From positions 25,262,401-25,326,400 of the forward strand of contig CM049317.1 of the NCBI GenBank assembly GCA_026874595.1: 64,000 nt of DNA, read 5' to 3'. The DNA is from Sipunculus nudus (Eukaryota; Annelida; Sipuncula; Golfingiida; Sipunculidae). How positions within the stretch are numbered: position 1 is the stretch's first letter; every line of letters starts with the position of its first letter. Below are positions 15,301 through 46,360 of the stretch, piece by piece. Made by a program: the position numbers and the translations under genes. The notes under the pieces are model-generated. The model did not search any database and was not told the origin of the DNA. It was given only the letters and a program-made list of their open reading frames with translations.

Positions 15301-18300
15301 ATTATCATCTAGAAACTAAATTTTGGACTGATGGCTCCTGTGACCTTAACCTTTGACCTTGTGACCTAACAATTGATAGGGGTCTTCTACTCTTGGCAGG
15401 TGAACTATATGTGCAAGATGAAAGATCTGAGATGAATTGTTTGGATGAAAATGCATCCACATCTTTTTAAAGGTGTGTCCTGTGACCTTGACCTTTGACC
15501 TCATAACCTCAAAATCAATTTGGGTCTTGCTTTTCCAATGGGACATATACAAGTCAAGTTTGAAATCCATACATCAATAAAAGCAGGAATTATCATCCAG
15601 AAACTAATTTTTGGACAGATGGCTCCTGTGACCTTCACCTTTGACCTTGTGACCTCACAATTGATAGGGGTCTTCCACTCTTGGCAGGTGAACTATATAT
15701 GCAAGAGGAAAGATCTGAGATGAATTGTTTGGATGAAAATGCATCCACAATCTTTTAAAGAGGTTTCCTGTGACCTTGACCTTTGACCTCATGACCCCAA
15801 AATCAATTCAGGTCTTGCTTTTCCAATGGGTCAAATTCAAGTCAAGTTTGAAATCCATACATCAATAAAAGAAGGAATTATCATCCAGAAACTAATTTTT
15901 GGACAGATGGCTCCTGTGACCTTCACCTTTGACCTTGTGACCTCAAAACTGATAGGGGTCTTCCTCTATTGGCAGATGACTTACATGTGCAAGATGAAAG
16001 GTCTGAGATGAAATGTTTGGCTGAAAATGCATCCACAATCTTTTTAAAGATGTGCCCTGTGACCTTGACCTTTGACCTCATGACCCCAAAATCAATTGGA
16101 GTCTTGCTTTTTCAATGGGACATATATAAGTCAAGTTTGAAATCAATACATCAATAAAAGCAGGAATTATCATCCAGAAACTAATTTTTGGACAGATAGC
16201 TCCTGTGGCCTTGACCTTTGACCTTGTGACCCCAAAATTTATATGGATCATCCACTACTGGCAAGTGAGCTATATATTCAAGATGGAAGACCTAAGATGA
16301 AAGTTTGGCTTAAAATGCATCCACAGTATCTTATAAAATGCCAGTCCAGTGACCTTGACCTTTGACCTCATGACCCTAGAACCTATAGGGTTCTTACTTT
16401 AGTGGTGGGCCATACATAAGTCATGTTTGAAATCCATATGGCTATCAACACTGGATATATCATAAGAGGTGTGTGATTTTCACCATATATGGCAATATTC
16501 AAGGTCAAGGCCACTATCATAGGAAAGGTCATGACCCCAATTTAAATAAACATCATCCCATAACCCATACCTATGTATATGCATAATATAAAAGAAATCT
16601 GTCCATTAGTTTTTGACTTATAATGCTCACAGTACTGTAAGGTGGCAATTTTGGGGGTATTAAACGGCACAAAAACAAGTACAGAATAATAGGTGGCGCC
16701 ACCAGTTTCTGGAACATGACAACCCTATCCATGATCTTCCATCAACTTGATTTTGGGATAAATCCATGCAAGATTTCTTGAGATATTAAAGAATTTGTGT
16801 GATTTTCCCCAAAATTGGACCTATTCAAGGTCAAGGACACTCTCCTAGTAAAGGTCATGACCTCATTTTAAATAGGCGTCGTCCTCTCACCCATATCTAT
16901 ACATATACCAAGTTTGGTAAAGTTCCTTGAAATATTTTTTGGGTTATCGCGCCAACAAGATTTATATGCGGCGGCGGCGGCGGCGGCGGCGGCGGGGGGA
17001 CCGGTATGAAAACATAGTATCCCCCGACTTTGTCTGGGGATACAATTAGTAGGGCTTTCAGAATGGTTATCAATGAGAAATTACTGTACTTAAACTTGTT
17101 TAAGGAAATCATGAAATATATCCATGTACTTACTTTCTATATTTTCTATTTCTTCTAAGCTTCTTTGCACCCATCTTTTAATTAGTGTCATATAGTAATC
17201 CCTCTGAAATAAGATTAAACAGGTAAATTTAAGAAGTAAAGATACAATATTTATACAAAATGCACAGGAGAACAAAAACTCCTCTGCTTTCCAGCATCCT
17301 CTTCTCTGGGTGGTTACTGGTAGCTGTTGGGATAAATTTCAATATTAAGGCCCTGTCACAGCACTGCGTGCAACTTACAGGTGACAATTTTTGCTGCCCG
17401 CAGCTCCCCGCAGTTGGCATGGACCTGGCAGTATCTTGCCCAGATCTTGTCCAGACTTGCCTGCAGGTGCACACGGAAGTCCGAATTGCCCGCAGCAAAG
17501 TAACGAACATGCTTAAAACTTGGTCCAGGCACGTGCAACTCCTGCACCTTGCAGGTAACTCCCCTATATGTTGCCCGGACCTAGCATGCAGGTAACCTGC
17601 AGTGCCCGTATGTGGCCCGGAGCTAACACAGACCTGTCTCTAAGCTCTCACGCACCTGGCCCACGTCTCACGGAGCGCACGCAATGCCGATGCAGATTCC
17701 ACGCATCCAACAGGCAAGTTCAATGTGAAACCTACCCAAATCTTGGCCTGCCCGCAGAGTTTTAACTACGTGCAACAAAATTCATGCACACAACAAGCCC
17801 GTGTGGCCCACGCAGTACTGATGTGACAGTGCCTTTAACTATCAGTGTGGTTTCAATGATCCAAAATTAAAATTTTCAATCAGAGCCACTGATGATCATA
17901 TCATTTTTGTCAGGACCACAGATAATCATATAAGTCTTGTCAAGGCCACTTATGATCATGTTAGTTTTGTCACTTTTTTGTCAGAGCCACTGTAATCCAG
18001 TCAGTTTGGTCAGAGCCACTGATGACTATACGAGTCCCTGTACACTGGAGGAAGAATATATTGCAACAATATCTTGCACCACAACTACCCTTAGGAGGTA
18101 ATACTTATAAGATTTTCTAAAGTATATAATTAAATTATTGTAAAAAATAGGTATATACATCAAAATATTTTAACCCTCCAGTAAATGATACAATAAAGCA
18201 CACTTAGCACAGTTGCGTCAATATTGAATGAACAAACAGATCTATGACAGGGAGATTTGTTAAAAGCATATCTTATGTGGTAAAAACTGAACTAAACTTC

Positions 18301-20368
18301 TTTGGATTTTAAAGTTTATGATTTCTACTCAAGATGGTATACTTCACATGAGGGAAAAAAAGATTTTTCACTGCATTCCCAGTTGTATTAAAATATGGAC
18401 ACAAAAAAATTTCGAAATCTGTTTAAAAGAAATAGTCATTATGTACAAGTTTATATGATTCCATTTATCACTTACTGACCCACCTTGATTTCATCATCCA
18501 CATGTTCCTTTTGTACTTGAGTATGTAAGTCGTTCAGTCTCTTCTCTAGCTCTTTCTGTTGTTTATACTGCTCTATTTTGTTTTGTCTTGATCTCGCCTG
18601 AGATATGAGATCCTGTGCCCTGTCATAACAAAATAAAGATGACTTATCCAAAAAACCTCAGCACCAGCAAGCGGGAATATCTTACAACCCATTTTTTTCC
18701 AAGTGCACCCAAGAAGTAGAATTTATTGTCAAAGAACAATGAAAACTAAAGGTTAATTTTTAGCACAGTGTTTACACAACTGACTAGTTATTGAGGTTAT
18801 CAGCAATGGTCAGTGACTACGACGAGACCCAACTTTGATCCTCTCAGTCCTACAGCCTGAAATATTGCACATTCGCTGGGACGCTTGGACCCCCAAAACT
18901 GAGCGTCTTGATGAGATTTTGAGCATCATAGACACTTGCCCCCATGTCCCTGAAAATCTGGTTTCCAAAATACACCAAAAGAAATTATCAAGAAGCCCTA
19001 AACTGCAAAATGTTTCAGCAACAGAAAAAGAATTCTACTCAACATTAGAAGAGCAAATGACCACCAATATTTCTAGTGATGATCCAAAACATGTCACATA
19101 TAAAATTTAAGAATGAAACAAAGGGAAAATCTGTTAAAAAAATAATTAAAATATTATGCAGCCAGTACCACTCCTATTACAGGACTGAAGGTCCATTATT
19201 CTCATTCTTAAATCAGACATGAAAGATCTTAGTTCTTTTTTAAATAAACAAGTTTGACATGCATACTTAAATCTTCATGGTAGTCAAACCTACCAACCCA
19301 TTGTGTCCAGGTGTCACAAACAGTGCAATGTACTGTGTTAAACTTGATATATAAAATGTCACTGCTGGAAATCCTTAAGTAAAACAGCCAACTAGAGTGA
19401 ATTTGTGGCAGTAAACTCTATCAACTACTGTGGTTTCCTTTATTTTCGCGAGGGTTTTAATTTCGCGATATTCGCGAATGGGAAATAATCGCGAAAATGA
19501 CACCCACGGGAATAACTGGCCAATTGAGTATGTCCTTCTTATTAAGTGTAGCCAATACTTGAATGGGAATAGGTTAGAACAGTGAGAAATCTTAATATAA
19601 ATTACATCCATGCAGGTATAGGGAAAACTTTCCCTTAAATTTGAACTTAAGAACCTGTGCTGTGTGTACGAGCCCATCCTTATATGAGAAGAATATCACA
19701 AGCTCATGAATTATTCTCAATTTATAATACACACAGGAATGGCTTTACCAAAGATTTGATGTAGGTCCTGGTGAGATCGCGAAAATGAGACCCTAGCGAA
19801 GCATTAAAAATGGAGAAATCTCGAAATTTCAGCCTCCAAATATGAAGCCAACCACAGTATCCTCACCCAGCCTGAGTTCGGGAACCTTTGTTACTGTCTT
19901 CATCGCCTTCACCTGAGCCAGGGATATGAACGTCTGTAATACCGTAATTTTTACATGACCTTAGGAAGTCTTTATAGTAGGCCTGCAAAGAAATAAGCAG
20001 AAAAGATATTACGCTCAATTCAAAAGATTGCCAACAATATATCTGATAGTCATCACAATACATCACAGAATTTGTCATTATTTTATGAAATATATATATA
20101 TGAGATACTGCTTTTCCATGCAATTTACCTTAATGTCTACTTAAGTTTGTATCCTACATTACTTTGTACACCCTATTTTCTCAAGAAAGATAATGTCTGA
20201 AGTCTGTAAGAATTGATACATGCAAATGTTGGTGTGATATTAGGGGATGTGGATGACATCTCTTGTGAAGGACTGTTGGAATACCCCAGCAATGTCTTGT
20301 TTAATCCTTATGGGGTCTTACTATGTACACTGTCAAGCTTTAGGTCTTTATTCAATTATTTATCAAAT

Positions 20369-20417
<49 letters not shown>

Positions 20418-23400
20418 AAATTATTCTTTTATCTCATTAAAGTCATTACTGGAAAATGTGACTTATCAGACAAAACATAGCTCAGCTATGCATCTCAAAA
20501 TTGTGTCAGTTGTCTTCTCGATACAACAATATAGCATATATATCAATAACCTATTTGATGTATTTGTAAGTTCATAAATTAATATATATCAATTGTAAGG
20601 CTTTGCACAGTACCTGCACAAATAATCACAAGGACAAAATACAACCAATGACCAACTAAGTTACTTAAATAAATAGATTCCAAATATCTATCAAAGTCAT
20701 CAACCCATAAAAAAGTATCAACTAGAAATATGCGTTCTTAGGATTGCAGGCCTCTGCCATGTGGGGAGTCCTTAATGCGGGGTACTCTGCAATCCGCGTT
20801 TGGTGCATATATCTAATTCCAATAGATGGTATCCATACAGGGCTCACTTTCTCTGTCTGATATACACAGTAATTTACACAGCCACCACATGGAGATGAGG
20901 TTTTTTATATGTTGTAGCATATCATTTGAGGTGGATCATGGATTAGGACGAGTTTCTCACCTGTGACTTTTTTACATGTTCACCTCGGTCACCACGACAC
21001 AACTGTCCTGTGAAGAAACCAAGGTAGGCGGGAAGTAACATATACCTGAAATAAAACAAAGTTCTATTAATATGTATTCTGTAACTCTTGTGAAATTGTA
21101 AATCTGAAATTAATCCTATGATTCCTATCAGGAATTAAAAAAAATAAAAACTGCATTTACATGAATGATATCCCCTATTAGGTGAATGAAGTCAAACTCA
21201 ATTGATATCTTGTGATTTTTTACCATCTTACTGATATCCCACTGATTTCTGATCTGGTAATGAAAACCAATTGAATCTTTACCAAAACAACGGAACCTTT
21301 ATTAATTTAAAATTGTCTTGTATTTGTGAGTTATACTCAATTATCTTAAGAGTCCATAAAATGTAAAAGTGGTCTTTGGAATTTTATTTTGCAGAGTTCA
21401 TTTGAAGAAATTTAAATATCAATTAATCATAGGACATTAAATAGGCAGTTACGTTGAAGTTAATAATTATACCTGTCATATATGTTTAAAAGCAATCCTA
21501 ATAACATTGTGTCATTGATTGGCAAGTTAAAAGTTAATTTAAATAAGACTCCTAGATCAATTCCAATTTTGCTGTTCAGATTTTTTTATCAATTAAAAAC
21601 TTTGCTAACAAACCTACTATTGGTGCCATATAAAGAGCTAACAAACAAGTACGATGGAAAGATATAGCAGGAACAAGAACAATCAGTGATCCACAGGACT
21701 ACAGCTCAACTTACAGTGGTTGTCTTTTTGTTCCCAAGGGTTTTCAAGGGAAAAAGAAATTATCACAAAAAATGAAACTTTCTATATATGTGAATACGAG
21801 GCCCCATCATCGCAGGCTAGTCCAAAGGAAAAACTTGTTATAATTAATTATGTCAAATCTTTCAAATTATCTGCCAATAATGAATTTTACTGGGGTCTCC
21901 ATCTGTTTTTTTTTGCATATATTATCTAATTATAATACCTGAGATTATCAGAAATCCATATAATCATTTATATGCTTGGTGTAGATAATTGTATGGTGTG
22001 CTCACAAAAACTGAACCCTCATGAACAATGAAAAAGTGAAAATCTCAAAATTGTAACCACACAAATATGAAAGCAACCACAGTATGTACATTTGCAGATG
22101 ACCCCCCCCCCCCCCCCTATACAGAGTAATTTTACATGCAGCCTTCCAGCCTCACCTCATATCAGCTGTAGCTACTTCCTCAATTACTTCATTTGTACTG
22201 AACATACTGAGCTCGTTCACCATTGTAATGGCCTTCTCTGCCTTCTGTATACAATGAATCATTTCAACCTATAAAAACAAAATGTGATTAATCCATATTT
22301 TTTAACTAACATGAACAAGTGACCCATGGGTCATGGTGCTCAGTTGATATATAATTTTGCTATAATGATCTAAAATCAAGTCATCACCTGCTTATTCAGA
22401 CCTGAAAGAACAGATGCAGAGACAGAGTTTACTGATTGGGAGTTTTAACTTAGAGTTAGACATGCAAGGCTGTTCTATAGTAAATATATTTGCCACTGTA
22501 ATATGTAAACTAGACATTTCTTGGCACCGCAGGTGCCAGAGTATCCCCAGACATAATAGGCCCCCCCCCCTTCAAGAATAGACCCCCATTTTTAGCAGCA
22601 TATACTGACACTTGGCATATTTATTGTTTCTTCCATCTAACAATCAACAATCTTGTTGAAGATGTTGGTCCTGTGACCTTGATCTTTTTAAAGATGTGTC
22701 CTGTGACCTTGACCTTTGACCTCATGACCCCAAAATCAATTTGGGTCTTGCTTTTCCAATGGGACATATGCAAGTAAGGTTTGAAATCTATACATCAATA
22801 AAGCAGAAATTATCATCCAGAAACTAATTTTTGGACAGATGGCTCCTGTGACCTTCACCTTTGACCTTGTGACCTCAAAATTGATAGTGTTCTTCCTCTC
22901 TTGGCAGGAGAACTATATGTGCAAGATGAAAGATCTGAGATGAAATGTTTGGCTGAAAATGCATCCACATCTTTTTAAAGATGTGTCCTGTGACCTTGAC
23001 CTTTGACCCCAAAATCAATTTTGGTCTTGCTTTTCCAATAGGACATATACAAGTCAAGTTTGAAATCCATACATCAATAAAAGCAGGATTATCATCCAGA
23101 AACTAATTTTTGGACAGATGGCTCCTGTGACCTTCATCTTTGACCTTGTGACCTCAAAAATTGAAAGGGGTCTTCCACTCTTGGCAGGTGAACTTTAAAA
23201 TACAAGTCAAGTTTGAAATCCATACATCAATAAAAGTAGGAATTATCATCCAGAAACTAATTTTTGGACAGATGGCTCCTGTGACCTTCACCTTTGACCT
23301 CAAAATTTATAGGGTTCTTCCTCTCTTGGCAGGTGAACTATATGTGCAAGATGAAAGATCTGAGATGAAATATTTGGCTGAAAATGCATCCACAATCTTT

Positions 23401-26400
23401 TTAAAGATGTGTCCTGTGACCTTGACCTTTGACCTCATGACCCCAAAATCAATTTGGGTCTTGCTTTTCCAATGGGACATATACAAGTCAAGTTTGAAAT
23501 CCATACATCACTAAAAGCAGGAATTATCATCCAGGAACTAATTTTTGGACAGATGGCTCCTGTGACCTTCACCTTTGACCTTGTGACCTCAAAACTGATA
23601 AGGGTCTTCCTCTATTGGCAGATGACTTATATGTGCAAGATGAAAGGTCTGAGACGAAATGTTTGGCTGAAAATGCATCCACAATCTTTTTAAAGATGTT
23701 TCCTGTGACCTTGACCTTTGACCTCATGACCCCAAAATCAATTTTGGTCTTGCTTTTCCAATGGGACATATACAAGTCAAGTTTGATATCCATACATCAA
23801 TAAAAGAAGATATTATCATCCAGAAACTAATTTTTGGACAGATGGCTCCTGTGACCTTCACCTTTGACCTTGTGACCTCAAAAACTGATAGGGGTCTTCC
23901 ACTCTTGGCAGGTGAACTTTAAAATACAAGTCAAGTTTGAAATCCATACATCAATAAAAGTAGGAATTATCATCCAGAAACTAATTTTTGGACAGATGGC
24001 TCCTGTGACCTTCACCTTTGACCTCAAAATTTATAGGGTTCTTCCTCTCTTGGCAGGTGAACTATATGTGCAAGATGAAAGATCTGAGATGAAATATTTG
24101 GCTGAAAATGCATCCACAATCTTTTTAAAGATGTGTCCTGTGACCTTGACCTTTGACCTCATGACCCCAAAATCAATTTGGGTCTTGCTTTTCCAATGGG
24201 ACATATACAAGTCAAGTTTGAAATCCATACATCACTAAAAGCAGGAATTATCATCCAGGAACTAATTTTTGGACAGATGGCTCCTGTGACCTTCACCTTT
24301 GACCTTGTGACCTCAAAACTGATAAGGGTCTTCCTCTATTGGCAGATGACTTATATGTGCAAGATGAAAGGTCTGAGACGAAATGTTTGGCTGAAAATGC
24401 ATCCACAATCTTTTTAAAGATGTTTCCTGTGACCTTGACCTTTGACCTCATGACCCCAAAATCAATTTTGGTCTTGCTTTTCCAATGGGACATATACAAG
24501 TCAAGTTTGATATCCATACATCAATAAAAGAAGATATTATCATCCAGAAACTAATTTTTGGACAGATGGCTCCTGTGACCTTCACCTTTGACCTTGTGAC
24601 CTCAAAAACTGATAGGGGTCTTCCACTCTTGGCAGGTGAACTTTAAAATACAAGTCAAGTTTGAAATCCATACATCAATAAAAGTAGGAATTATCATCCA
24701 GAAACTAATTTTTGGACAGATGGCTCCTGTGACCTTCACCTTTGACCTTGTGACCTCAAAATTTATAGGGTTCTTCCTCTCTTGGCAGGTGAACTATATG
24801 TGCAAGATGAAAGATCTGAGATGAAATATTTGGCTGAAAATGCATCCACAATTTTTTTAAAGATGTGTCCTGTGACCTTGACCTTTGACCTCATGACCCC
24901 AAAATCAATTTGGGTCTTACTTTTCCAATGGGACATATACAAGTCAAGTTTGAAATCCATACATCAATAAAAGCAGGAATTATCATCCAGGAACTAATTT
25001 TTGGACAGATGGCTCATGTGACCTTCACCTTTGACCTTGTGACCTCAAAACTGATAGGGGACTTCCTCTATTGGCAGATGACTTATATGTGCAAGATGAA
25101 AGGTCTGAGACGAAATGTTTGGCTGAAAATGCATCCACAATCTTTTTAAAGATGTGTCCTGTGACCTTGACCTTTGACCTCATGACCCCAAAATCAATTG
25201 GAGTCTTGCTTTTTCAATAGGACATATATAAGTCAAGTTTGAAATCCATACATCAATAAAAGCAGGAATTACCATCCAGAAACTATTTTTTGGACAGATA
25301 GCTCCTGTGGCCTTGACCTTTGACCTTGTGACCCCAAAATTTATATGGATCATCCACTATTGGCAAGTGAGCTATATATTCAAGATGGAAGACCTAGGAT
25401 GAAAGTTTTGCTTAAAATGCATCCACAGTATCTTTTAAAATGCGAGTCCAGTGACCTTGACCTTTGACCTCATGACCCCGGAACCTATAGGGTTCTTACT
25501 TTAATGGTGGGCCATACATAAGTCATGTTTGAAACCCATATGGCTATCAACACTGGAGATATCATAAGAGGTGTGTGATTTTCACCATATATGGCAATAT
25601 TCAAGGTCAAGGCCACTATCATAGGAAAGTTCATGACCCCAATTTAAATAAACATCATCCCATAACCCATACCTATGTATATGCATAATATAAAAGAAAT
25701 CTGTCCATTAGTTTTTGACTTATAATGCTCACAGTACTGTAAGGTGGCAATTTTGGGGGTATTAAACGGCACGAAAACAAGTAAAGAATAATAGGTGGCA
25801 CCACCAGTTTCTGGAATATGACAACCCTATCCATGATCTTCCATCAACTTGATTTTGGGATAAATCCATGCAAGATATCTTGAGATATAAAAGAATTTGT
25901 GTGATTTTCCCCATAATTGGACCTATTCAAGGTCAAGGACACTCTCCTAGTAAAGGTCATGACCTCATTTTAAATAGGCGTCGTCCTCTTACCCATATCT
26001 ATATATATACCAAGTTTGGTAAAGTTTTGTGAAATATTTTTTGGGTTATCGGGCCAACAAGATTTATATGCGGCGGCGGCGGCGGCGGTGGCGGCGGGAC
26101 CGGTATGAAAACATAGTATCCCCCGACTTTGTCTGGGGATACAATAAATAAACAAGGGACCCATGGGTCACGGCGCTCAGCTGATATATATGATAAATAT
26201 GATTTGGGAAAGAGGCACATGCTTGTTTTGTGTGGTAATAAATATAAGCTTTATTATGAGTGGTTGGTGTTTAGCTTATGTATGATTTTGATAGTATCTT
26301 TGGAGACAGGGAAGAGGATTGATTTCATTTATTTTATTAACAAATAGAGTGCTATTTTCACACAGATTTTGACTTGGCCATATAACTTATAAGCAGTACA

Positions 26401-29400
26401 TATTATAAAAGAGTTTAACTATTTATTAAAATTTAATAACAAATATTGTGCCAATATAATTAAAAAAAAAATAATAAGAAAATCATATGATTTTTTAAAA
26501 TAAAATATAACTGGAATGATTACTGAAATAATATTATAGAATATATTCATGAATGCATTCATGAGTACATTTTGAAAGTATCTGCACTGGTATTCAAATA
26601 CTTTCATTTTTACCTGAATTCCCATCCTTATGCAATAAAATTTTTTAATGCAGTACATATTTATATTTGTATTCAAATACATTTGCAAAGCATTTGCACC
26701 ATGTCTAGTATTTATTCAGTTTTAGCCAAACAAAGATGTTGAGAATCCAGAATATACATAATTCACAAATTTAAATAATGATCATAAGTACCTGGTTTTA
26801 TGGCTTTTATTTATATTAAAAAAAAATAAATGTAATATATTCACTTTGGACTACTTTCACATCAATCTACACACTAGACACAGTAAGAATCTAGATTAAT
26901 ATTATCAACTGCATCTTTGTCTATCATTAATTTCCTTCATATGATACCTAATGATTAGTAATGAATAATATGATTTATTTTTTTATCATTAAAATTTCAC
27001 TGAAAAATACCATAGGTGACTGCATGGTGTTATTTGGAATAACATTGACATTCTATCCATCCATACAAGATTCTTACATTATCAGTAACTGCAAGTTAAT
27101 TTTCTGTTACTCATCAACTAACAAATTCCTTTCTATTAATTTTTCTTTAATTTGTTATAAAAACAATACAAAATTATTAATTTATTGTTTATTATTATGT
27201 TGTTTTTCATAACAACTACTAGATGAGTTGGGTTGGACACCTGGATCAACTGTGGCTGGGCATTAGCTGCCTGGCTGCCCATGTGTATGCTTCGCTCAAG
27301 CATGCATAATCTGATAAAAGGTCAACAAGGTCAACATACAGGTGACTGAAGAGGGGCTGGATTAAGCCTGGGTCTGACATGGTTTCATATAAACATTAAT
27401 AAAAGCTACAATATTTGGCCAATTTCTTTCAGCTTTCTAAACTACAAAGACGAAATCCTTATGTGTGCATGATATGAAAATTATATCAACAGTGCTCTCA
27501 GGAAACAAACATGCCATGGTCAAAGTTGGGCAAAATTTAAGGTACTAATTTTATATTTATACTAATAACTTATAAAATTTTAGAAAATTCAGAACTAATT
27601 TTTGGTATTCAATTGAATCTTGATTAAATAATGTTACATCCCTGTCAAAAAAACTCTAGCTTCAGCAATCCTCTTGTTAAGGGAGTAAATATATTTCTTG
27701 TTTTTTTTTAAAAGTGCATTATGTTTGGGCCCATAACTTAAAACAATTACGCAATACTGACATAATTTCTGGCATGTGCATAGCAAATGTATAGAAAAAT
27801 ATGTATATTATATATGATCAATGTCAGACCAGTGGTTTTGATATTAGGCAGTCTTACAGTGTAACAATGGGTTTTTAATGATAAATGAAGTTTTTCATTA
27901 ATATTTCGAAGGAATTAAGTCCTAGTGATAAAATTCTTGGCATGGTAGGGGATTTTGGAGATATCTAATTGTATGCTAAATTTGAGGAACTTAGAGCTGA
28001 AGCTGGGGAGCTGAGCTCTAGCAAACTGCATAACACTAGATTGATGTAAACTTGATGTGACATGGTGCTTGAAAACTTGTATAAAATCTACAGTTTTTGA
28101 TTAACTGGTTTCAAATTTCTGGTGTTAACAGACAAAATGCTAACAAAAACATGCTGTGAAAATTAAATCCACAGTACTTACAGGAAAAAAAACGTGCCAT
28201 TGTCAAACTTGGGCAAAATTAAAGGTACCAATTTTATATTTTTGCCAATATTTAAAAACATTTAACAGATTTTGATCTAATTTTTGGTATACAATTAAAT
28301 TTTTATTAATTAAAGTTGTATTACTGAAAAAAAGTCTCTACCTTTAACACTTTTGGTCTTAAGTGACCAAATATCTTTCCTGATATTTTTACAAAGTCCA
28401 TTATGTTTGGGCTAATAACTTTTTTAAATTAAATAATACTGACTCAATTTCTGGCATGTACATAGGAACAATATAGAGGAATATTTATGGTCAATATGAA
28501 GAAAACCAGATGAGTGGTTTTGATATTAGGCAGTCCTGAAGTGTAAAATTAGATTTCTAATAAAAAAACGAGGTTTTTCCTTAATATCTTGAAGGAACGA
28601 AGTCCTATTGACCAAATTTTCGGCTTGGTAGGGGATTTTTGGGACATCTTACTGTATGGCAAATTTCAGATTCCTAGGTCCAATGGTGTCGAAATGTGCC
28701 AGTCTTACGGCTGGACATCCGGACAGACATCCAGACGGACGACGGACAATGGACCACGACTATAGCTCAGATGAATTATAGTCAGCTGAGCTAAAAAAAA
28801 AAACCCATGCATTGATAAATGTCACTGATAAATTTATGTAACCCTAACAATGTGGACTCAATTTGAGTCCTACATCACTGACAGAAAACTAGCCCATAAG
28901 AATGAACTCCTCAATTGCTTTTTTTCAGTGACTGACGCATTGTGGAGTCCATAGATTGCACCTGCAGTTAACTGTGATTACAACACTCCATACACAACTG
29001 TGAGATTTAACATATATCCATTGATTAATGTTTAGTACATCTATGTGTATTGTATATTTGACCACTAGAAAACATTACTGTTCTCTTCTCAGCCCTATTT
29101 CGCACCAAGGAAGTTAAAATATGAACATAATAGTACACAGGCCTAAAGCCTTATACAGGACTGCCACCAAATGCAAGATGTCTACCGGGGCTGTTAATGC
29201 TTCAATTCTCTCTGGACAAATACTATCAGTTGTTGATGTTAGAGGTGCTTCATGCTTTCCAGAATGGTTATTTTTCATTACAGTCCTTTCGACATACAAC
29301 ATAATGTGAAATTGGTATGTTAAAACCATAGGGAATATTTTTATTTAATTTTCTTTCTAAGAGTAACAGATCGTATCGTGCTATAACCCCAGTTAGCCCT

Positions 29401-29929
29401 TTGGTGGGCCGGTGACACAACAGAAACCTGAAACCTGTCGCGTCGACGTCGGCGGCTAACAGAAAACATAGTCCCTTACAGAAACTTAATTTTTGATGTT
29501 TTCCCATGTAGACCGGATTATATACAAGATTGACCTAATTTTCATAAAATGTGTTGTCTGGTATACTTTGTATGTTCTAGCATTTACTAGTAACTTTCAT
29601 GTGGATGGTATCTAGGGGAAACCTATGCTGTATATTTGCAGTTAGTTATTATTTAAATGAAAGGCTAAGTGAAATGTCATTTAACACGTGAGTGTCTAAA
29701 AATAGAACTGTCATCACTCAAATGTCAACAGCCCAGGCACCATCCAGCTGTGACAGTACACCTGATTTTAACTGAACTGTATTGTTCATTGTATAATCTT
29801 GTCAGTGGTCTGAAGTATTACCTGGATTTCATCGGATCCACTGGCTTCGCTGCCATTTTCCACGCGGTCGTAAACTTTATAAATTTCTTCATACAAATCA
29901 GAGAGCTTTGGTACGTGCGGCTCTGCCAT
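9300..29929 (-). CDS. IGBP1: IGBP1 / alpha4 (TAP42 family), complete gene, 10 coding exons
   Basis: Regulator of PP2A-type phosphatases: family members bind free catalytic subunits of PP2A, PP4 and PP6, and act in TOR signalling in yeast. Joining the exons gives 1050 bp, i.e. 349 residues plus stop (human protein about 339). Exons in transcript order: 29929-29822, 22268-22156, 21045-20961, 19982-19867, 18619-18484, 17203-17134, 13187-13093, 12545-12409, 9745-9597, 9340-9300; every junction is GT-AG and in phase. Diagnostic segments are P-F-I-L-T-R-D followed by Q-A-K-V-F-G-A-G-Y-P-G near residues 246-264, an Arg/Gln/Lys/Glu helix (K-Q-Q-K-E-L-E-K-R-L), W-V-Q-R-S-L-E-E-I-E, and the C-terminal D-W-D-D-W-K-D ... 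G-N-R-Q-N-M-G. The helical N-terminal part should form the TPR-like phosphatase-binding domain. A small conserved gene stretched over 20.6 kb by repeats. A second copy of exon 1 lies at 31134-31241. Confidence 0.93.
9597..9745 (-). CDS. IGBP1: IGBP1 exon 9
   Basis: Codes for D-V-Q-K-Q-M-S-D-A-H-N-P-E-K-A-A and on through an acidic/basic coiled stretch to A-R-D-W-D-D-W-K-D, the conserved C-terminal motif. The donor is GATG|GTGAGT. The acceptor (tgttctgttacag|AGATGT) has been copied many times just upstream in the 9746-11115 array. Confidence 0.9.
9746..11115 (-). repeat. Minisatellite derived from the IGBP1 exon 9 splice acceptor
   Basis: Roughly 40 tandem units of 32 to about 42 bp. On the transcribed (-) strand each unit reads GACCTGATGTTCCTGTTACAG then GGATGT, nearly the same as the real exon 9 acceptor and first six exon bases. 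The last 600 bp (about 10490-11110) are homogeneous 32-bp units; the part nearest the exon is more divergent and includes AGGTCAAAGGTCA. Lies wholly in intron 8. Confidence 0.88.
11640..12235 (+). repeat. Interspersed repeat with three to four sub-units of about 140 bp
   Basis: It opens with TGTCCCCTGCCATCGCCC and a nearby GGGACA/GTGTCCCC inverted motif. Sub-units then repeat 'CAATAACTCAAAAAGAATTTGAGGCACAGTCAC...', '...GGGCTAGGTCAAGTTC...' and 'GACCTTGACACATTTTC'. No coding frame. Lies in IGBP1 intron 8. Confidence 0.6.
12409..12545 (-). CDS. IGBP1: IGBP1 exon 8
   Basis: Codes for A-F-R-P-F-I-L-T-R-D-Q-V-Q-A-K-V-F-G-A-G and Y-P-G-V-P-T-Y-T-V-E-E-F-Y-E-Q-Q, the most conserved block of the family. 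Acceptor ttctgcag, donor CCAGA|GTAAGT, ending in phase 2. Confidence 0.93.
13093..13187 (-). CDS. IGBP1: IGBP1 exon 7
   Basis: Codes for E-L-K-I-I-Q-Y-M-A-S-R-K-S-S-D-S-T-S-K and a Lys/Ser-rich linker ending S-K-Q before the P-F-I-L-T-R block. Acceptor tgttttcag, donor ACAA|GTAAGT. Confidence 0.88.
13380..13625 (-). mobile_element. Copy of hairpin-ended repeat family G
   Basis: Shares 'TTTTGGTGTGGATC', 'CAGATCCAGGAA', 'GGAATATGGGCCGAATAAGTGAATG' and the terminal hairpin 'GCATTCCTTAGAATGC' with copies near 47.7, 48.2, 49.3, 53.7 and 55.7 kb. A 14-base C run interrupts it at about 13553. Strand is arbitrary; the elements carry no gene. Confidence 0.5.
13626..13765. repeat. 33-bp tandem repeat, four units
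   Basis: Units of CATGTTGATTAACTTTTGAA-type sequence followed by CAAGACGTTTG(T). The period of 33 (11 codons) keeps a frame open by chance and gives a repetitive K-R-L-V-Q-K-L-I-N peptide on the - strand, which I do not regard as a gene. Confidence 0.75.
14137..17045 (+). mobile_element. Repeat family A, copy 1 (2.9 kb, built of ~300-bp modules)
   Basis: It starts CTTGGCACCGCAGGTGCCAG, then GTATCCCCAGACA, and ends with an inverted GTATCCCCCGAC..GTCTGGGGATAC. The body has about seven modules of roughly 290-306 bp. Each holds 'GTGACCTTGACCTTTGACCT', 'CTTGCTTTTCCAATGGGACA', 'GGAATTATCATCCAGAAACT', 'GTGACCTTCACCTTTGACCT' and 'GCAAGATGAAAGATCTGAG'. A (GGC)n run lies at about 16970-17000. The many small open frames (M-G-L-A-F-P-M-G-H-I-Q-V and so on) recur with each module and are not genes. 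It lies in IGBP1 intron 6 and ends about 90 bp from exon 6. Confidence 0.7.
17134..17203 (-). CDS. IGBP1: IGBP1 exon 6
   Basis: Codes for R-D-Y-Y-M-T-L-I-K-R-W-V-Q-R-S-L-E-E-I-E and N-I-E, matching the conserved R-E-Y-Y..L..W-I..S-L-E-E-I block of alpha4 proteins. Acceptor cttatttcag, donor GAAA|GTAAGT. Confidence 0.9.
17345..17838. mobile_element. Short TTAA-flanked inverted-repeat element (piggyBac-like MITE)
   Basis: A GC-rich block of about 490 bp in AT-rich surroundings. It is flanked by TTAA on both sides (17345-17348 and 17835-17838). The ends are inverted: GGCCCTGTCACAGCACTGCG on the left, and AGGCACTGTCACATCAGTAC followed by TGCG on the right read in reverse. TTAA duplications are typical of piggyBac-type elements. 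Open frames at 17229-17595 are inside it and are not genes. Lies in IGBP1 intron 5. Confidence 0.65.
17876..18035. repeat. Degenerate tandem repeat, about five units
   Basis: Repeats of 'TCAGAGCCACTGATGATCAT' plus 'ATCAGTTTTTG', about 30-45 bp each. Lies in IGBP1 intron 5. Confidence 0.6.
18484..18619 (-). CDS. IGBP1: IGBP1 exon 5
   Basis: Codes for A-Q-D-L-I-S-Q-A-R-S-R-Q-N-K-I-E-Q-Y-K-Q, then Q-K-E-L-E-K-R-L-N-D-L, the long basic helix of the TAP42 fold. Acceptor gttatgacag, donor CAAG|GTGGGT. Confidence 0.92.
18835..19110 (+). other. Unassigned 91-codon open frame inside IGBP1 intron 4
   Basis: On the strand opposite IGBP1. The peptide has protein-like composition (W-D-A-W-T-P-K-T-E-R-L-D-E-I-L-S-I-I-D and further Lys/Ser/Glu-rich sequence) and does not come from a repeat I can see. 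No convincing promoter or splice sites. It could be a fragment of a processed pseudogene or chance; I do not recognise a family. Confidence 0.2.
19426..19859. mobile_element. MITE with TACTGTGGTT ends touching the exon 4 donor
   Basis: It begins TACTGTGGTTTCC and ends AACCACAGTA (inverted). The sub-terminal parts are rich in TTCGCGA / TCGCGAAAAT in opposite orientations. It ends two bases before the CCTCAC that is the exon 4 donor (GTGAGG) on the other strand. A related end (AGCAACCACAGTATG) lies at about 22070-22085. Confidence 0.6.
19867..19982 (-). CDS. IGBP1: IGBP1 exon 4
   Basis: Codes for A-Y-Y-K-D-F-L-R-S-C-K-N-Y-G-I-T-D and a Gly/Asp/Ser linker to R-T-Q-A, corresponding to the L-x-x-C-x-x-Y region of alpha4. 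Acceptor tttctttgcag, donor CTGG|GTGAGG, ending in phase 2. Confidence 0.87.
20372..20415. repeat. (AT)n microsatellite
   Basis: About 22 dinucleotides in IGBP1 intron 3. The Ile/Tyr-repeat open frames across it are artefacts. Confidence 0.9.
20961..21045 (-). CDS. IGBP1: IGBP1 exon 3
   Basis: Codes for Y-M-L-L-P-A-Y-L-G-F-F-T-G-Q-L and on to H-V-K-K-S-Q, matching the Y-L-L-x-P-A-x-L-G signature of the TAP42 N-terminal helices. Acceptor ttatttcag, donor ACAG|GTGAGA. Confidence 0.92.
21046..22155 (-). other. IGBP1 intron 2, nothing recognised
   Basis: AT-rich sequence with a fragment of the exon-4-type MITE near 22000-22085 and a 17-base C run near 22100. Small frames at 21482 and 21720 are not supported. 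Confidence 0.5.
22156..22268 (-). CDS. IGBP1: IGBP1 exon 2
   Basis: Codes for V-E-M-I-H-C-I-Q-K-A-E-K-A-I-T-M-V-N-E-L then S-M-F-S-T-N-E-V-I-E-E-V-A-T-A-D-M, matching 'L-F-S-x-N-E-x-x-E-E-x-A-T-x-D' of the family. Acceptor ttttatag, donor TGAG|GTGAGG. Confidence 0.92.
22314..22352 (-). mobile_element. Solo end of repeat family T
   Basis: AACAAGTGACCCATGGGTCA followed by TGGTGCTCAGTTGATATATA, the same terminus as at 3513, 26149, 37120 and 40832, with no matching body beside it. Confidence 0.55.
22510..26145 (+). mobile_element. Repeat family A, copy 2 (3.6 kb, with internal 724-bp tandem duplication)
   Basis: Same ends and module order as 14137-17045, including (GGC)n near 26070-26098 and the GTCTGGGGATACAAT end. 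It contains a 724-bp block repeated in tandem (23185-23908 and 23909-24632; the same open frames recur at that offset) and a third diverged start at 24633. It lies in IGBP1 intron 1 and directly abuts the family T copy starting at 26149. No protein-coding gene. Confidence 0.7.
26149..28793 (-). mobile_element. Repeat family T, copy 2 (reverse orientation)
   Basis: Reverse-complement counterpart of 846-3513: the order of sub-blocks and even the chance frames (M-N-N-M-I-Y-F-F-I-I-K, M-Y-L-N-T-N and others) are shared. It ends with TCAGCTGAGCTAAAAA at 28793. With copy 1 it forms a 2.6 kb inverted repeat with a 22 kb spacer that encloses nine of the ten IGBP1 exons. Confidence 0.65.
28794..29290. 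other. IGBP1 intron 1, nothing recognised
   Basis: An A-tract followed by AT-rich sequence without a recognisable gene or repeat. Confidence 0.5.
29822..29929 (-). CDS. IGBP1: IGBP1 exon 1 (copy proximal to the gene)
   Basis: ATG at 29929-29927 in good context (gcgccATGg). Codes for M-A-E-P-H-V-P-K-L-S-D-L-Y-E-E-I-Y-K-V-Y and 16 more residues ending D-E-I-Q, with donor CCAG|GTAATA in phase 0, fitting exon 2 (V-E-M-I). 'L-x-x-L-x-x-x-I/G-x-x-x-x-x-x-V' is the usual start of alpha4 proteins. The larger open frame on the opposite strand is its shadow. Confidence 0.9.
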
Positions 29930-30258
29930 GGCGCTTATCTCCTGTGTTCTTACAACAGTAGACTAAGATTATGGAACACTGTGTGTGAACTGCTCGGAGC
30001 CTGCTTTTCTGCCTGGGTGTCTCATAGTATAAATGCATCCGAATATTGTATTTCATTTTTTAATTTAATATGCTTATCGGTCCTCCGAAATCTAAACATT
30101 GTAGAAAAAGTTGTTTTAGTATTTTATTTAGCATTGGATTATGAAAATGAAACTATGTTATAGTGACTTTGACTAAAATCATTTTTAATTGACAGATAAT
30201 TTCTGAATTTTTAACAACAGCAGGAACTATACAATATCCGCTACAACCGTAGAGCAAG
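29930..30258. promoter_or_regulatory. Bidirectional IGBP1/FMC1 promoter, copy 1
   Basis: The two start codons face away from each other across 329 bp, so one region must serve both genes. No TATA box in a consistent place. Part of the duplicated unit. Confidence 0.7.
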
Positions 30259-30330
30259 ATGGCAGCTTCCAGGGAAATGAACTTGAGAATTTTTCGCGGT
30301 TTACTTAGAGAGCTGAAACATGCTCACCAG
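30259..30330 (+). CDS. FMC1: FMC1 exon 1, upstream copy
   Basis: Identical to 31571-31642: M-A-A-S-R-E-M-N-L-R-I-F-R-G-L-L-R-E-L-K and H-A-H-Q before CAG|GTAATA. Could be spliced to exon 2 in place of the downstream copy; the protein would be the same. Confidence 0.75.
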
Positions 30331-30471
30331 GTAATAATATCTATTTAAGATTTGTAATTAATGTCAGTACTTAACGTTTGAACAGAAATACTCAAAAAGG
30401 AGATCTTAACCATGCTCACGGGTGAACAAAGTCACCTTTTCTTCTCGTCAACTTACACTTTAAAGTCTTTA

Positions 30472-30603
30472 CAGTGGAACCTCGAATAACCGAATGGCTC
30501 GATTATCCGAATGGTTCGGAACATCAGGATTGTCCAGGAATTTATGGGATGGAAATACCTCCCTGTGAATTCTCACAAATTCTTTGCGATTTCCCACTTG
30601 GGG
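30472..30603 (+). mobile_element. Pogo/Tigger-like element end
   Basis: CAGTGGAACCTCGAATAACC then GAATGGCTCGATTATCCGAA resembles pogo-superfamily inverted-repeat ends (CAGT start, 'ACCTCG..AATCCGAA'). Only one end and about 130 bp are visible. The 1312-bp duplication breaks at its far side; the second copy is at 31784-31915. Confidence 0.4.
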
Positions 30604-31133
30604 ACATACAACATAATGTGAAATTGGTATGTTAAAACCATAGGGAATATTTTTATTTAATTTTCTTTCTAAGAGTAACAGATCGTATCGTGCTATAACC
30701 CCAGTTAGCCCTTTGGTGGGCCGGTGACACAACAGAAACCTGAAACCTGTCGCGTCGACGTCGGCGGCTAACAGAAAACATAGTCCCTTACAGAAACTTA
30801 ATTTTTGATGTTTTCCCATGTAGACCGGATTATATACAAGATTGACCTAATTTTCATAAAATGTGTTGTCTGGTATACTTTGTATGTTCTAGCATTTACT
30901 AGTAACTTTCATGTGGATGGTATCTAGGGGAAACCTATGCTGTATATTTGCAGTTAGTTATTATTTAAATGAAAGGCTAAGTGAAATGTCATTTAACACG
31001 TGAGTGTCTAAAAATAGAACTGTCATCACTCAAATGTCAACAGCCCAGGCACCATCCAGCTGTGACAGTACACCTGATTTTAACTGAACTGTATTGTTCA
31101 TTGTATAATCTTGTCAGTGGTCTGAAGTATTAC

Positions 31134-31241
31134 CTGGATTTCATCGGATCCACTGGCTTCGCTGCCATTTTCCACGCGGTCGTAAACTTTATAAATTTCT
31201 TCATACAAATCAGAGAGCTTTGGTACGTGCGGCTCTGCCAT
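31134..31241 (-). CDS. IGBP1: IGBP1 exon 1, distal duplicate
   Basis: Exact duplicate of 29822-29929 with its donor, 1312 bp further from the gene. It could act as an alternative first exon giving the same protein, or be silent. Confidence 0.75.
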
Positions 31242-31570
31242 GGCGCTTATCTCCTGTGTTCTTACAACAGTAGACTAAGATTATGGAACACTGTGTGTGA
31301 ACTGCTCGGAGCCTGCTTTTCTGCCTGGGTGTCTCATAGTATAAATGCATCCGAATATTGTATTTCATTTTTTAATTTAATATGCTTATCGGTCCTCCGA
31401 AATCTAAACATTGTAGAAAAAGTTGTTTTAGTATTTTATTTAGCATTGGATTATGAAAATGAAACTATGTTATAGTGACTTTGACTAAAATCATTTTTAA
31501 TTGACAGATAATTTCTGAATTTTTAACAACAGCAGGAACTATACAATATCCGCTACAACCGTAGAGCAAG
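31242..31570. promoter_or_regulatory. Bidirectional promoter, copy 2
   Basis: Duplicate of 29930-30258. It is the proximal promoter for FMC1, as copy 1 is for IGBP1. Confidence 0.65.
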
Positions 31571-31642
31571 ATGGCAGCTTCCAGGGAAATGAACTTGAGA
31601 ATTTTTCGCGGTTTACTTAGAGAGCTGAAACATGCTCACCAG
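31571..31642 (+). CDS. FMC1: FMC1 exon 1, proximal copy
   Basis: ATG in context agcaagATGg; 24 codons; donor CCAG|GTAATA, phase 0. Confidence 0.9.
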
Positions 31643-34600
31643 GTAATAATATCTATTTAAGATTTGTAATTAATGTCAGTACTTAACGTTTGAACAGAAA
31701 TACTCAAAAAGGAGATCTTAACCATGCTCACGGGTGAACAAAGTCACCTTTTCTTCTCGTCAACTTACACTTTAAAGTCTTTACAGTGGAACCTCGAATA
31801 ACCGAATGGCTCGATTATCCGAATGGTTCGGAACATCAGGATTGTCCAGGAATTTATGGGATGGAAATACCTCCCTGTGAATTCTCACAAATTCTTTGCG
31901 ATTTCCCACTTGGGGAAATAATTTTATTAATGAGAAAAAAAATAATATTCTGTATATACGCACTTCAAGTCTTCAGTTACTGGAAAAGGTCACTTGATAT
32001 AAATGTCTTAACTATTTCATTTTAGAAAAAAAGTGTTCTGGTTTTATGCATTTAGCTTTATTTAAATGTGCTTTTTTATTTATTTTTTTCATCAATTATT
32101 ATATTTTATTTTATTATTATTTTATTTTACAAGATATCTGGCTAATTTTTGTTTTAGTATTGCTTCAGGTACTTAAAATATGTACGTAGTGGTTTCCTGA
32201 AGTGTGATTTGTCATGACTCATGTTTCTTTATCTAAAACTGTCCCTGTTCTTGAAAACAAATGTTTATTTGTAATTTATATTTTTTTTCATCTCCGGAAT
32301 TCAAACCTTAATGACTTTCCATTTAAATACCTATATGTAAATAACTAGCAGCAAACACAATGCCCCAAGAGGCTGAGACAGGCACACATAATAGTCCAGA
32401 TCATAGATCTCTAAGTGTCCCTGTTAACCTTTGGAAAATTATTATTTTTTTTTATGATTTTTTCAGAAGAAATGGCAGACACTGCCAGCCCTGTCATACA
32501 TCAGAGACCAGTACCATGACCATCAAGTCACGAGTAGGAAGGTGTGTCGTGGGGAGAACGAGATGAGACACCTGGCTCAGACGTACAGCTGTTACCTTGA
32601 GAGTCTCAGGAAACAACAGGTGTGAACCAGCGCAGGGTACAAATTAGGCTAAAAAATTTACATGCTCCAGGTGCACCCTTGAAACAAAACCTACATGCCC
32701 CTAAAGATTTCAACATGCACCTTCTAAACCTAGTTAAAATTTTTTGTTAAGGAGTTTCTGTTTCTCAAAGAATAGTAATGCTAATTTAAGATTGTGATGT
32801 TTATGAATAGTAAAAAAAAATTGTCATTTAATAGAGTGGTAATTCACAGTGGTATTTAATATTTTAGGGGCCTGGACTGTCTAAATGTAAAATTCTCGGT
32901 CACTTCGCTGTTTGATCCTTGGCATCACTGTGTTAGTGAGTTGTAGTGGCCTGTTCAAGGCTGGTGGTTTTCTCTGGGTTCTCTTGTTTTCTCCAACTTC
33001 AGACACAAATGACCACCATCACTTGAGCCATGTAGAGCGCCTGGATTAGTTATGATAACTATTTTTGCACCCATATAAAGTTTGAATGAATGCTGTGTGC
33101 CAGGACGGACACCATATCAGAGTAAATATTATGAAGAAAACACCAGGTTTGAAAAATCATATATTTCATAACCTTGAAATCTGCTGTATAAAATGTTGGC
33201 AGAGTAAATCCAGCCTCATTTGTACATTAGGGCCCCCTTCCAATTGTGAAAAACATGTTGATGTACATGTTTCTGCACACTGGTAACTCACACTAGTGTT
33301 AATCATATATACCTTTTCCATTCACGTGTTCCCTAGTGAAATCATGTCAGACAGAGGGGGTTCTGCACACATGGGAAAATGCCCAATTCAGCGTGTGTTT
33401 TTTCAGAGCATGGATACGCATGTGGAAAACAGGCCTTATGCTGAGAGTAAAATACAGTCACAGGGTTGTTTACAGTTGTTTGCTTCACATGGTTCAGTTG
33501 TAATATTGTCCACTACTTTATGTCTCTTTTTTCCTTTTATCGCAGACAGCAATAAAAAAGTTTTTTTTTTCTATGCATTGTGACTCCTTTCTGTGTGTTT
33601 ACATAATTTTTTGTGATCTATGCAAAACTGCAATCAATTAAATAGATTATGAAAGAAACTGACCAATCATTGATATAATTGATTAACTGGTGCAATAATA
33701 CTGAGCTCTCAGGTATTAAACCAGTGTCCAGTGCATTCGGGTTGAAGTATTGTCTGTTAGATTAAATCATTTGTAGCAGTGAATGAGTCTGCTATAATAT
33801 CTCTCTGATCAGAAATTCACACTGATAGTTTTATCTATTTATTTCTCTCTGTCAGTAATGACCAGAACTGTTTTTAGCTCAGCTGACTATAAGTCATCTG
33901 AGCTGTAGTCATGGTCCATTGTCCGTCGTCCGTCCGTCCGTCTGGATGTCCGTCCGTAAGACTGGCACGTTTCGACACCGTTGGACCTACGAATCTGAAT
34001 TTTGGCATACAGTTAGATGTCCCCATAATCTCCTACCATGCCAAAAATTGGGTCAATAGGACTTCGTTCCCCTGAGATATTAAGGAAAAACCTCAATTTT
34101 TTATTAGAAATCTATTTTCACACTTCAGGACTGCCTAAAATCAAAACCACTCATCTGGTTTTCTTCATATTTACCATGAATATTCCTCTATATAGTTCCT
34201 ATGTACATGCCAGATATTAAGTCAGTATTATATAATTTAAAAAAGTTATGGGCCCAAACATAATGGACTTTGTAAAAAAATCAGGAAGATATTTGGTCAC
34301 TTAAGACCAAAAGTGTTAAAGGTAGGGACTTTTTTCCAGTAATACAACTTATATTAATCAAAATTTAATTGTATACCAAAAATTAGATCAAAATTTGTTA
34401 AATTTTTTTAGATATAGGCAAAAATATAAAATTGGTACCTTAAATTTTGCCCAACTTTGGCCATGGCACGTTTTTTTTCCTGTAAGTACTGTGGATTTAA
34501 TTTTCACACCATGTATACATAAGGATTTAATCTGTTAAAATCTGAAATTTAAAAATAAAAGCTGCAAAATTAGGCTAGTTATTGAATTTTTTTGGAGGCT

Positions 34601-43666: not shown

Positions 43667-44898
43667 CTGGAAACAACCATAAAAGAAACGTCATTAGTGA
43701 ATACATTGAATGAATGATGTATCTATATAGTAATTTATATTCATTAAAATCACATTCACTCAGCAGGTAGGGTTTTGTTCTCATTTAATGGTTTGAGGAA
43801 GATACGCTACCTAAAACGAGGAGATTTATGAAAAATGTAGGTTTCGCACATGCAAGATTAGGATAAAGGTAATTATAACATTCATGAAAATGGTCTTTGG
43901 TTAAACAGTTGTAGTTTTCTTTTGATTAAACACGATCGTTGCAGAAAGAGGCGGTGTAGGCCTTCTTATTCCGTGAGTGTATCTGATCGATGGTATCTTT
44001 TAAGTATAATAGTTTGCTGTAAGTTTAATAGTGAAACTGCTGCATGTGGTGGATTTACGTTGAGAAAAAAGAACTTGGTTTATAAAAGAAATATGATATA
44101 CAGGTGTAAATGAGAGGGTTTTATCATGGAAAGGGTGATCTCTATTACATCTTGAATGATGAAAGTTAGGGAAACTAGCGTTTTGTTCATACGCATAAAA
44201 CCAAACCTCGGGTCCTCTCCGTGTGACCTTCTTGATGACGATGTCTTCATGGCTTTCTGAGGTTGGATAACTTCCTCCTGTATTGGTTTTAAGCTTCTGA
44301 CTTTCTCCTCCTGTTTCGGGCTTGTTACTTCTAGACTTGGATTTTTTACTTTTTCTGGACTCGGGCTGTTGACATTTTCTAGGCTTGGACTTTTGACATT
44401 CCCGGCTGGTTTTGATTTGACATCCTTGTTTTTAATTGAGTTCGTCTTTTGCTTGACCTTGAACCCCATGGCTGTCATGAACTCCACGTGTGTTATTTTT
44501 CCAGACCCAGAGGCATTTGTGTCATTGAATAATTCCTAGAATGATATAATATAAATTTTACCCACACAGATGAAAATTACATTCACTTTCTTTATTTCCA
44601 GTTATAATCGATGAGCTAGCCTTGTCTGGGCTTTAGTATTTACGTTTGCTCCTAAAATGTAACGATGTACCGATAGACGTACATAGTGCCAGCTCTAAGT
44701 ACAATGAAACAGTCGGCGGGGGGGGGGGGGGGGGGGGGGGATGTAATTTAGTTATACAATTTACCACGAGATGGTAGTAGCTGTTCTAAGCGTTGCGACA
44801 CAGCAAGAGTAAGTTTGGTGACTCTGATATTGGGAGGAATTATGTTTTGACCATTGCATCGACTGGGTCAGCCTATCGATGAGCAACAGACAAGGCAA

Positions 44899-45366: not shown

Positions 45367-46259
45367 TAGGATCGCCAATTGCAAACTTTTCTCTACGCGA
45401 CCCACATTTTATTTTAATTAGAACTCCCTGATTTCGGCAATATGTTTAAATCGGTATACTGTAATGCACTGCTGTTCATATAATTTACTACATATATTTC
45501 GTAATGTCTAACTTCGAAGAAGGTTAATCACATGGAAAGTAACTAGATGACGCGGTCACTCCCTGATTGTGCAAAAAATAAATCATCTCCATGATGTAAA
45601 GCGAACCGGATCAGGCCCTGTAAAAATAAACACAGACCAAGGGAGCCGGGACTTACCCAATTTTGCGCGGACCTCCCTTATTCCGATGGTTTAGGCCAAA
45701 AAAAAAAGAAAAATAAAAGGTAGGGTTCTCAGGCTCCGCCCCGTCAATTTTCAACCCCCCCCCCCCCCCCCAATCAAAATTTTTTATTTTGATTATCCTT
45801 CAAGAAGATAAAATAAAACAATTTTGATAAGATATCCTTTGTTATGTTTTGCTTTTACCTGTTTAGGTAAAGAAAAATATGTTATTTTCATAGTTTTCCC
45901 TGATCATATGACAATTCTGATCGAAACATACAAAAAAGGAAAAAACAAAAATATCGCCCGCCCGCCCGCCCGCACTTTTTTTCGGAAAAAAATGCCCGAG
46001 AACCATACCTTAGTAAAGTGTTTTGAGCCCTGATAGATGTATGTAAGCGGTTATATGTGTGTAGATAGGTACCACGTATGTTTGATTTGACTATGTTTGG
46101 ATTTATGTATACCATGATTTCGCTGTCTGATCCCTGGTAGTGATATCGTCTTAAGATTGACGCTAGTTCCTCAAATGTCAGGAGTCCATCCTTGTTCGTG
46201 TCAGCCTCGTTAAAGAAGGCCTCGAAGTCCTGTTCGGAGAGGTTAACGTGACTCCTCAT
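43447..46259 (-). CDS. EF-hand protein with Lys/Ser/Pro linker, complete (3 coding exons, 231 aa)
   Basis: Exons 46259-46113, 44535-44207 and 43666-43447 join in phase to 696 bp including TGA. Four EF-hand-like loops lie at residues 20-31 (D-T-N-K-D-G-L-L-T-F-E-E, canonical), 56-67 (N-A-S-G-S-G-K-I-T-H-V-E, Asn in the first position), 171-182 (D-K-D-G-S-G-T-I-D-K-K-E, canonical) and 207-218 (D-S-N-P-T-D-S-I-N-Y-D-E, lacks the Gly). Loops 1 and 3 should bind calcium; 2 and 4 are degenerate. The order resembles calmodulin/troponin C, but the hinge is about 100 residues, basic and Ser/Pro-rich with octad repeats. No signal peptide or membrane segment, so cytosolic or nuclear. Probable poly(A) signals lie at about 43363-43376. 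I do not recognise a named orthologue. Confidence 0.85.
44207..44535 (-). CDS. EF-hand protein exon 2 (loop 2 and linker)
   Basis: Acceptor tcattctag|GAA. Codes for E-L-F-N-D-T-N-A-S-G-S-G-K-I and on through the linker with repeats N-V-K-S-P-S-L-E, N-V-N-S-P-S-P-E, K-V-K-N-P-S-L-E. The donor is the weak CGAG|GTTTGG, chosen because its phase 2 end fits exon 3. Confidence 0.8.
44718..44741. repeat. Poly(G) run
   Basis: About 24 consecutive G in the intron between EF-hand exons 1 and 2; a (TAA)n tract follows at about 44898-44930. Confidence 0.9.
45319..45362. repeat. (AT)n microsatellite
   Basis: About 22 dinucleotides in the same intron. Confidence 0.9.
46113..46259 (-). CDS. EF-hand protein exon 1 (start, loop 1)
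   Basis: ATG at 46259-46257; 49 codons from M-R-S-H-V-N-L-S-E-Q-D-F to S-E-I-M, donor CATG|GTATAC. An acceptor (tttttcag) 15 bp before the ATG implies a non-coding exon further upstream. Confidence 0.85.
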
Positions 46260-46360
46260 GGCTCTTTACATAAGCTGAAAAATGCAAAATACAGCTGTTT
46301 TAAAACCAACTTGAAATATTAATAAACCGCTAGTTTGCACATAACAATAGTTTAATACAG

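Follow-up and report, generated by a model that had tools for sequence, protein, structure and literature searches.

A perfect 1312-bp tandem repeat of the IGBP1/FMC1 gene starts in Sipunculus nudus, probably a young duplication of a head-to-head promoter and both first coding exons

In the 64,000-bp stretch of the Sipunculus nudus genome analyzed here (the window; contig CM049317.1, positions 25,262,401 to 25,326,400 of the forward strand, GenBank assembly GCA_026874595.1), the starts of two divergently oriented genes, IGBP1 and FMC1, are written twice in tandem. The question raised by this locus is whether the doubling is a genuine and recent duplication or an error of assembly and, if it is genuine, in what order it arose and what it would mean for the two genes. 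The features discussed below are listed in Table 1.

Table 1. Features of the IGBP1/FMC1 locus, with positions counted from the first base of the window
Feature	Position	Strand	Basis or remark
IGBP1 downstream matches to human	18490-18609, 17129-17203, 12417-12539, 9598-9687, 9303-9338	-	tblastn
IGBP1 exon 2	22156-22268	-	Splice sites; tblastn match 22155-22238
Target-site duplication ACAGAAAAC, left	28881-28889	+	9 bp flanking element
569-bp MITE-like element TAGCCC...GGCGGCTA, whole	28890-29458	+	Contains left breakpoint 29291; dispersed copies
Copy 1 of 1312-bp unit	29291-30602		Exact period-1312 match
Target-site duplication ACAGAAAAC, right	29459-29467	+	9 bp flanking element
IGBP1 first coding exon, proximal	29822-29929	-	tblastn, open frame, donor; gene in TAP42 family PF04177
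Candidate bidirectional promoter (329 bp between start codons), copy 1	29930-30258		CpG observed/expected
FMC1 first coding exon, distal	30259-30330	+	tblastn, open frame, donor
Copy 2 of 1312-bp unit	30603-31914		Match extends to 31916 via 2 shared bp (GA)
Truncated element, last 168 bp	30603-30770	+	Then same 9-bp ACAGAAAAC
IGBP1 first coding exon, distal	31134-31241	-	Identical repeat copy, tblastn
Candidate bidirectional promoter, copy 2	31242-31570		Identical repeat copy
FMC1 first coding exon, proximal	31571-31642	+	tblastn, joined gene model
Palindrome, 7-bp stem	31901-31919		Hairpin search; spans right breakpoint
FMC1 exon 2	32467-32619	+	Found once
FMC1 exon 3 through stop codon	37127-37225	+	Found once

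The window contains a direct repeat array (29291-31916) with a period of 1312, a length of 2626 bp, and 2.0015 copies. Comparison of copy 1 with copy 2 gives 0 differences in 1314 positions, in agreement with the initial annotation, which had described two tandem 1312-bp units with no difference between them. The start that it gave for the array, 29291, stands, but the matching run continues for two bases past the end that it gave, 31914, since both sides of the junction carry GA. Outside the array, identity drops immediately at both edges to 26 to 34% (flanks of 50 to 200 bp), which is chance level; alike copies placed head to tail and ending abruptly are the features of a tandem segmental duplication. 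Within the window, no other tandem pair reaches 99% identity, and there are no N bases in the window or between the copies.

A search of the assembly (1.43 Gb, 153 contigs), with scoring of the 40 best among 964 candidates, placed the whole unit twice, both times at this locus; a full extra copy would be expected to rank at the top of these candidates. Of the 41 matches to the unit obtained in this scoring, the 39 outside this locus span just its first ~168 bp, and the stretch 30331-30604 was not found beyond the two window copies (2 of 2 candidates scored). On these grounds, we rejected the possibility that the unit in its entirety is mobile or widely dispersed. Positions 30470-30540 and 31782-31852 carry TACAGTGGAACCTCGAATAACCG..., for which no genome copies beyond these two were found and which presumably resembles the end of a pogo/Tigger-type transposon. 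An inverted repeat pair (28163-28797 and 33871-34500, 89 to 94% identity, ~5 kb apart) flanks the duplication on both sides. Elsewhere in the window, a 41-bp satellite (3770-7420), read by eye from its consensus units, switches orientation twice, with 3.2 units (3770-3900) and 23.3 units (6465-7420) running one way and 63 units (3875-6465) running the opposite way. Open frames that by eye resemble EF-hand exons (44080-44535 and 45888-46265, minus strand) and part of a C-type lectin-like domain (61566-62000, plus strand) are also present.

Each unit holds a putative first coding exon of each gene ("exon 1" refers to the coding part only, for both genes). IGBP1 exon 1 has 36 codons (MAEPHVPKL...DEIQ) and FMC1 exon 1 has 24 codons (MAASREM...AHQ); in both copies, these exons are open, end in phase 0, and are followed by a splice donor, which is GTAATAC for IGBP1 and GTAATAAT for FMC1. 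With human IGBP1 and FMC1 sequences as the tblastn queries, exon 1 on its own is matched weakly (E values of 0.064 for IGBP1 and 1.2 for FMC1), and we assigned the exon 1 identities on the basis of start codons, frames, donors, neighborhood, and downstream exons. IGBP1 exon 2 begins at 22268 on the minus strand and is in frame with either first exon. The joined IGBP1 exon pieces score 132.7 bits against Pfam TAP42 (PF04177), above the curated cut-off of 26, and two single exons score 43.8 and 32.6 bits; the part corresponding to human residues 78 to 147 was not located by tblastn in the window. Satellite blocks of alike 288- to 289-bp units lie within the IGBP1 introns (14310-16438 and 22682-25540), the second of which has an additional 713-bp period (96%).

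The putative FMC1 gene (FMC1 is an LYR-type ATP synthase assembly factor) is complete in the window: three exons, with the proximal exon 1, encode a 107-amino-acid protein, and the distal exon 1 is identical to the proximal one and therefore gives the same protein. Exons 2 and 3 are matched by the human query with E values of 4.5e-7 and 4.4e-5, respectively. Against Complex1_LYR_2 (PF13233), the protein scores 15.2 bits, with a cut-off of 22.3, and against BCDHK_Adom3 it scores 15.6 bits, which is also below the cut-off for that family. As far as exon-by-exon searches of the 1.43 Gb reach (short exons could escape them), the doubling is confined to the gene starts. No further copy of IGBP1 was found in these searches, which gave 2 genome matches, both of them exons at this locus, and no further copy of FMC1 was found among 4 matches at this locus (two of which are exon 1) and 1 poor match elsewhere that contains stops (E = 0.33). 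Duplication of whole genes was rejected, since the downstream exons are each found once.

The two genes are arranged head to head with 329 bp between them, which, with start codons standing in for transcription starts, is within the <1-kb spacing of a bidirectional pair. The 329 bp have a CpG observed/expected ratio of 0.76, which rises to 0.88 when the exons are included; the ratio for the window is 0.47, and the raised ratio of the 329 bp is compatible with an unmethylated promoter. The word AAGATGG sits at the FMC1 start and resembles what we take to be a YY1 site. A simple motif search of 29801-30360 found no NRF1, Sp1, ETS, CRE, or E-box sites and found two TATA-like words, one inside IGBP1 exon 1 and the other between the start codons; a bacterial promoter scan is uninformative on an animal promoter. 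The literature searched gave no report that pairs FMC1 with IGBP1 or with a bidirectional promoter, and we make no claim that duplication of such a promoter is new to the literature. The open frames, the phase 0 donors, and the 329-bp spacing of the start codons uphold the earlier account of what the unit contains, and these frames and this spacing, together with the exact repeat, likewise fit its description of a tandemly duplicated head-to-head promoter with two first exons, in which the promoter is predicted. The identical exons and in-frame joins also agree with its proposal that either first-exon set could be used without changing either protein.

The left breakpoint provides information on the order of events. 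An element that starts before the unit, at 28890, terminates within it and supplies the unit's first 168 bp, so that the element is whole across the left edge of copy 1 and cut at the start of copy 2. Besides this locus, 39 matches to the element are spread over 16 contigs. In 14 copies picked as distinct places from 34 loci, identity with the window element is 94 to 97%. An exact 9-bp target-site duplication flanks the window copy and 7 of these 14, and 8 of the 9 bases are duplicated in another 5; of the remaining two, one lacks the 5' end and one matches 3 of the 9 target-site bases. We take a 569-bp MITE with a 9-bp target-site duplication to be Mutator-like. The short length, constant ends, many copies that are 94 to 98% alike, and 9-bp target-site duplications are shared with elements of that kind; in contrast, the terminal inverted repeats of this element are very short (TAGCC/GGCTA), and the superfamily label is tentative. 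The element pieces in copies 1 and 2 share two bases that are absent from 8 other aligned copies, as well as the 3' ACAGAAAAC, and an independent insertion of the 168-bp piece in copy 2 was rejected because of these two private bases and the common flank. Since the element is whole in copy 1 and cut in copy 2, with the same private bases and flank, it was inserted before the duplication. In the sequence as assembled, then, the element appears to have been present in IGBP1 intron 1 when the duplication took place, and 30602/30603 appears to be the new joint. The initial annotation overlooked that the left breakpoint lies inside a mobile element, and the use of this element as a recorder of event order is absent from it.

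The junction itself contains 2 bp of microhomology (GA). Among random junctions drawn in the window, 17% share as many bases or more; the overlap would fit end joining or template switching without being diagnostic. Of the two breakpoints, the right one lies in a palindrome and the left one does not. This palindrome hints at a stalled-fork origin, but the evidence is weak because it concerns one of two inspected breakpoints and because comparable hairpins take up 0.7% of the window when GC-richer stems are counted and 2.3% when every stem of at least 7 is included.

We consider it likely that this locus carries a young tandem duplication of the IGBP1/FMC1 head-to-head promoter plus both first coding exons. 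The kind of event looks ordinary rather than like a new kind of gene control. The 569-bp element would have inserted in IGBP1 intron 1 first; later, break repair or a replication template switch would have joined FMC1 intron 1 (30602) to the interior of the element (29291), and this joining across the 2 shared bases would have copied 1312 bp once. The outer pair of first exons (IGBP1 exon 1 of copy 1 and FMC1 exon 1 of copy 2) would lie as far from the downstream exons as in the ancestral arrangement and is probably the source of most mRNA. The inner pair could be spliced onto the same exon 2 of each gene, with the other first exon skipped within a longer intron; lacking an acceptor, a first exon would be passed over in this way, leaving the proteins unchanged. 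RNA from the inner FMC1 start would run to the right across promoter copy 2, and RNA from the inner IGBP1 start would run to the left across promoter copy 1, so that the inner transcripts would converge and overlap from ~30259 to 31241 at least. Transcripts that converge and cross the other promoter copy would therefore probably be weak or redundant.

With zero differences, divergence between the copies is at most 0.23% (upper 95% bound), which, at assumed rates of 2 to 4e-9 per site and year, corresponds to an age of less than about 0.3 to 0.6 million years. The duplication is possibly polymorphic in the species; in the Mediterranean mussel, which is an analogy only, many structural variants are described in hemizygous regions (available part of PMC7653742). 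That a double promoter segregates with its inner pair active, providing both genes with two interchangeable first exons apiece and with inner transcripts that overlap head-on, is a tentative suggestion that we consider doubtful.

The main rival to a real duplication is assembly error. In the form that we take most seriously, although we consider it unlikely, an uncollapsed contig-end overlap or noisy reads from a single haplotype would have caused one real unit to be written twice. False duplications of the homotype class are attributed to read errors that leave sequence under-collapsed (available part of PMC9516828), and perfect identity, exactly two copies, and a junction that is not diagnostic are also what an under-collapsed assembly would be expected to produce. 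In the same part of that study, residual false duplication is 0.3 to 2.3% even in better assemblies, and false duplications on one scaffold are marked by gaps between the copies and by reduced read depth. The 1312-bp pair resembles these in having alike copies on one scaffold; in contrast, it has neither a gap nor sequence differences between its copies, and both the junction and the window are free of N. None of 15 random 10-kb stretches contained a tandem pair that reached 99% identity and had a period of 200 bp or longer (6 of the 15 contained arrays of at least 90%), which argues against such an error, although the 150 kb sampled is a small sample that bounds the rate only to less than about one in 50 kb. 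The same 15 stretches give no support to near-perfect tandem pairs as a common real class and are too few for such pairs to be called rare. Heterotype false duplication, in which two haplotypes are written in succession, is the larger class in most assemblies tabulated in the available part of PMC9516828, with the exception of the older hummingbird assembly. However, the chance of zero differences between alleles would be 2e-6 at 1% allelic divergence, 0.001 at 0.5%, and 0.07 at 0.2%, so that an allelic difference of at least 0.5% would make this error unlikely; with no N between the copies, we regard it as highly improbable overall.

Tandem repeats are prone to gene conversion, and an older duplication could in principle have been held identical by it. 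Conversion is expected to leave unconverted borders at repeat edges; here, however, identity is perfect to both edges of the unit, and the copied element is just ~3 to 6% from its 14 relatives, which does not require great age, and we give this explanation very little credence. Of the three causes that the initial annotation had offered, a recent event is therefore the one we favor, ongoing conversion is unneeded, and a two-haplotype error is opposed by the zero differences and the lack of N. A further explanation is that the double promoter has been maintained for raised or retimed expression of IGBP1 and FMC1. Among Drosophila yakuba tandem duplications, regulatory shuffling altered expression more often than whole-gene duplication did, with raised expression in 24 of 76 chimeras versus 5 of 66 whole-gene copies (available part of PMC5460883), and an expression effect of a promoter duplication is therefore possible. 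The extreme youth of the IGBP1/FMC1 pair, however, leaves no time for conservation to show, and we consider maintenance of this kind very doubtful.

A recent duplication of the two gene starts, which we favor, differs from the 5' and regulatory-shuffling duplications described for D. yakuba (available part of PMC5460883) in that the unit is 1.3 kb and spans two divergent starts and in that it yields a second start per gene rather than a chimeric protein. Duplication of the promoter region of HK1 in hereditary hemolytic anemia, where long-read RNA revealed aberrant expression (available part of PMC12374552), is a precedent for duplication at a promoter. It is a single-gene case with a disease effect, whereas the duplication described here involves two genes and is known from sequence alone.

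If the repeat is an assembly error, the lesson would be that alternative promoters should not be called from perfect kilobase-scale tandems at gene starts until the reads have been checked. If it is real, a mobile element at a duplication breakpoint records which event came first, and the locus is a clean, brand-new promoter duplication with two sequence-identical copies, so that any difference in their use must stem from position alone (proximal or distal placement, or promoter interference). If the inner pair is active, the locus would be a natural, one-step test of what a copied bidirectional promoter does before any mutation.
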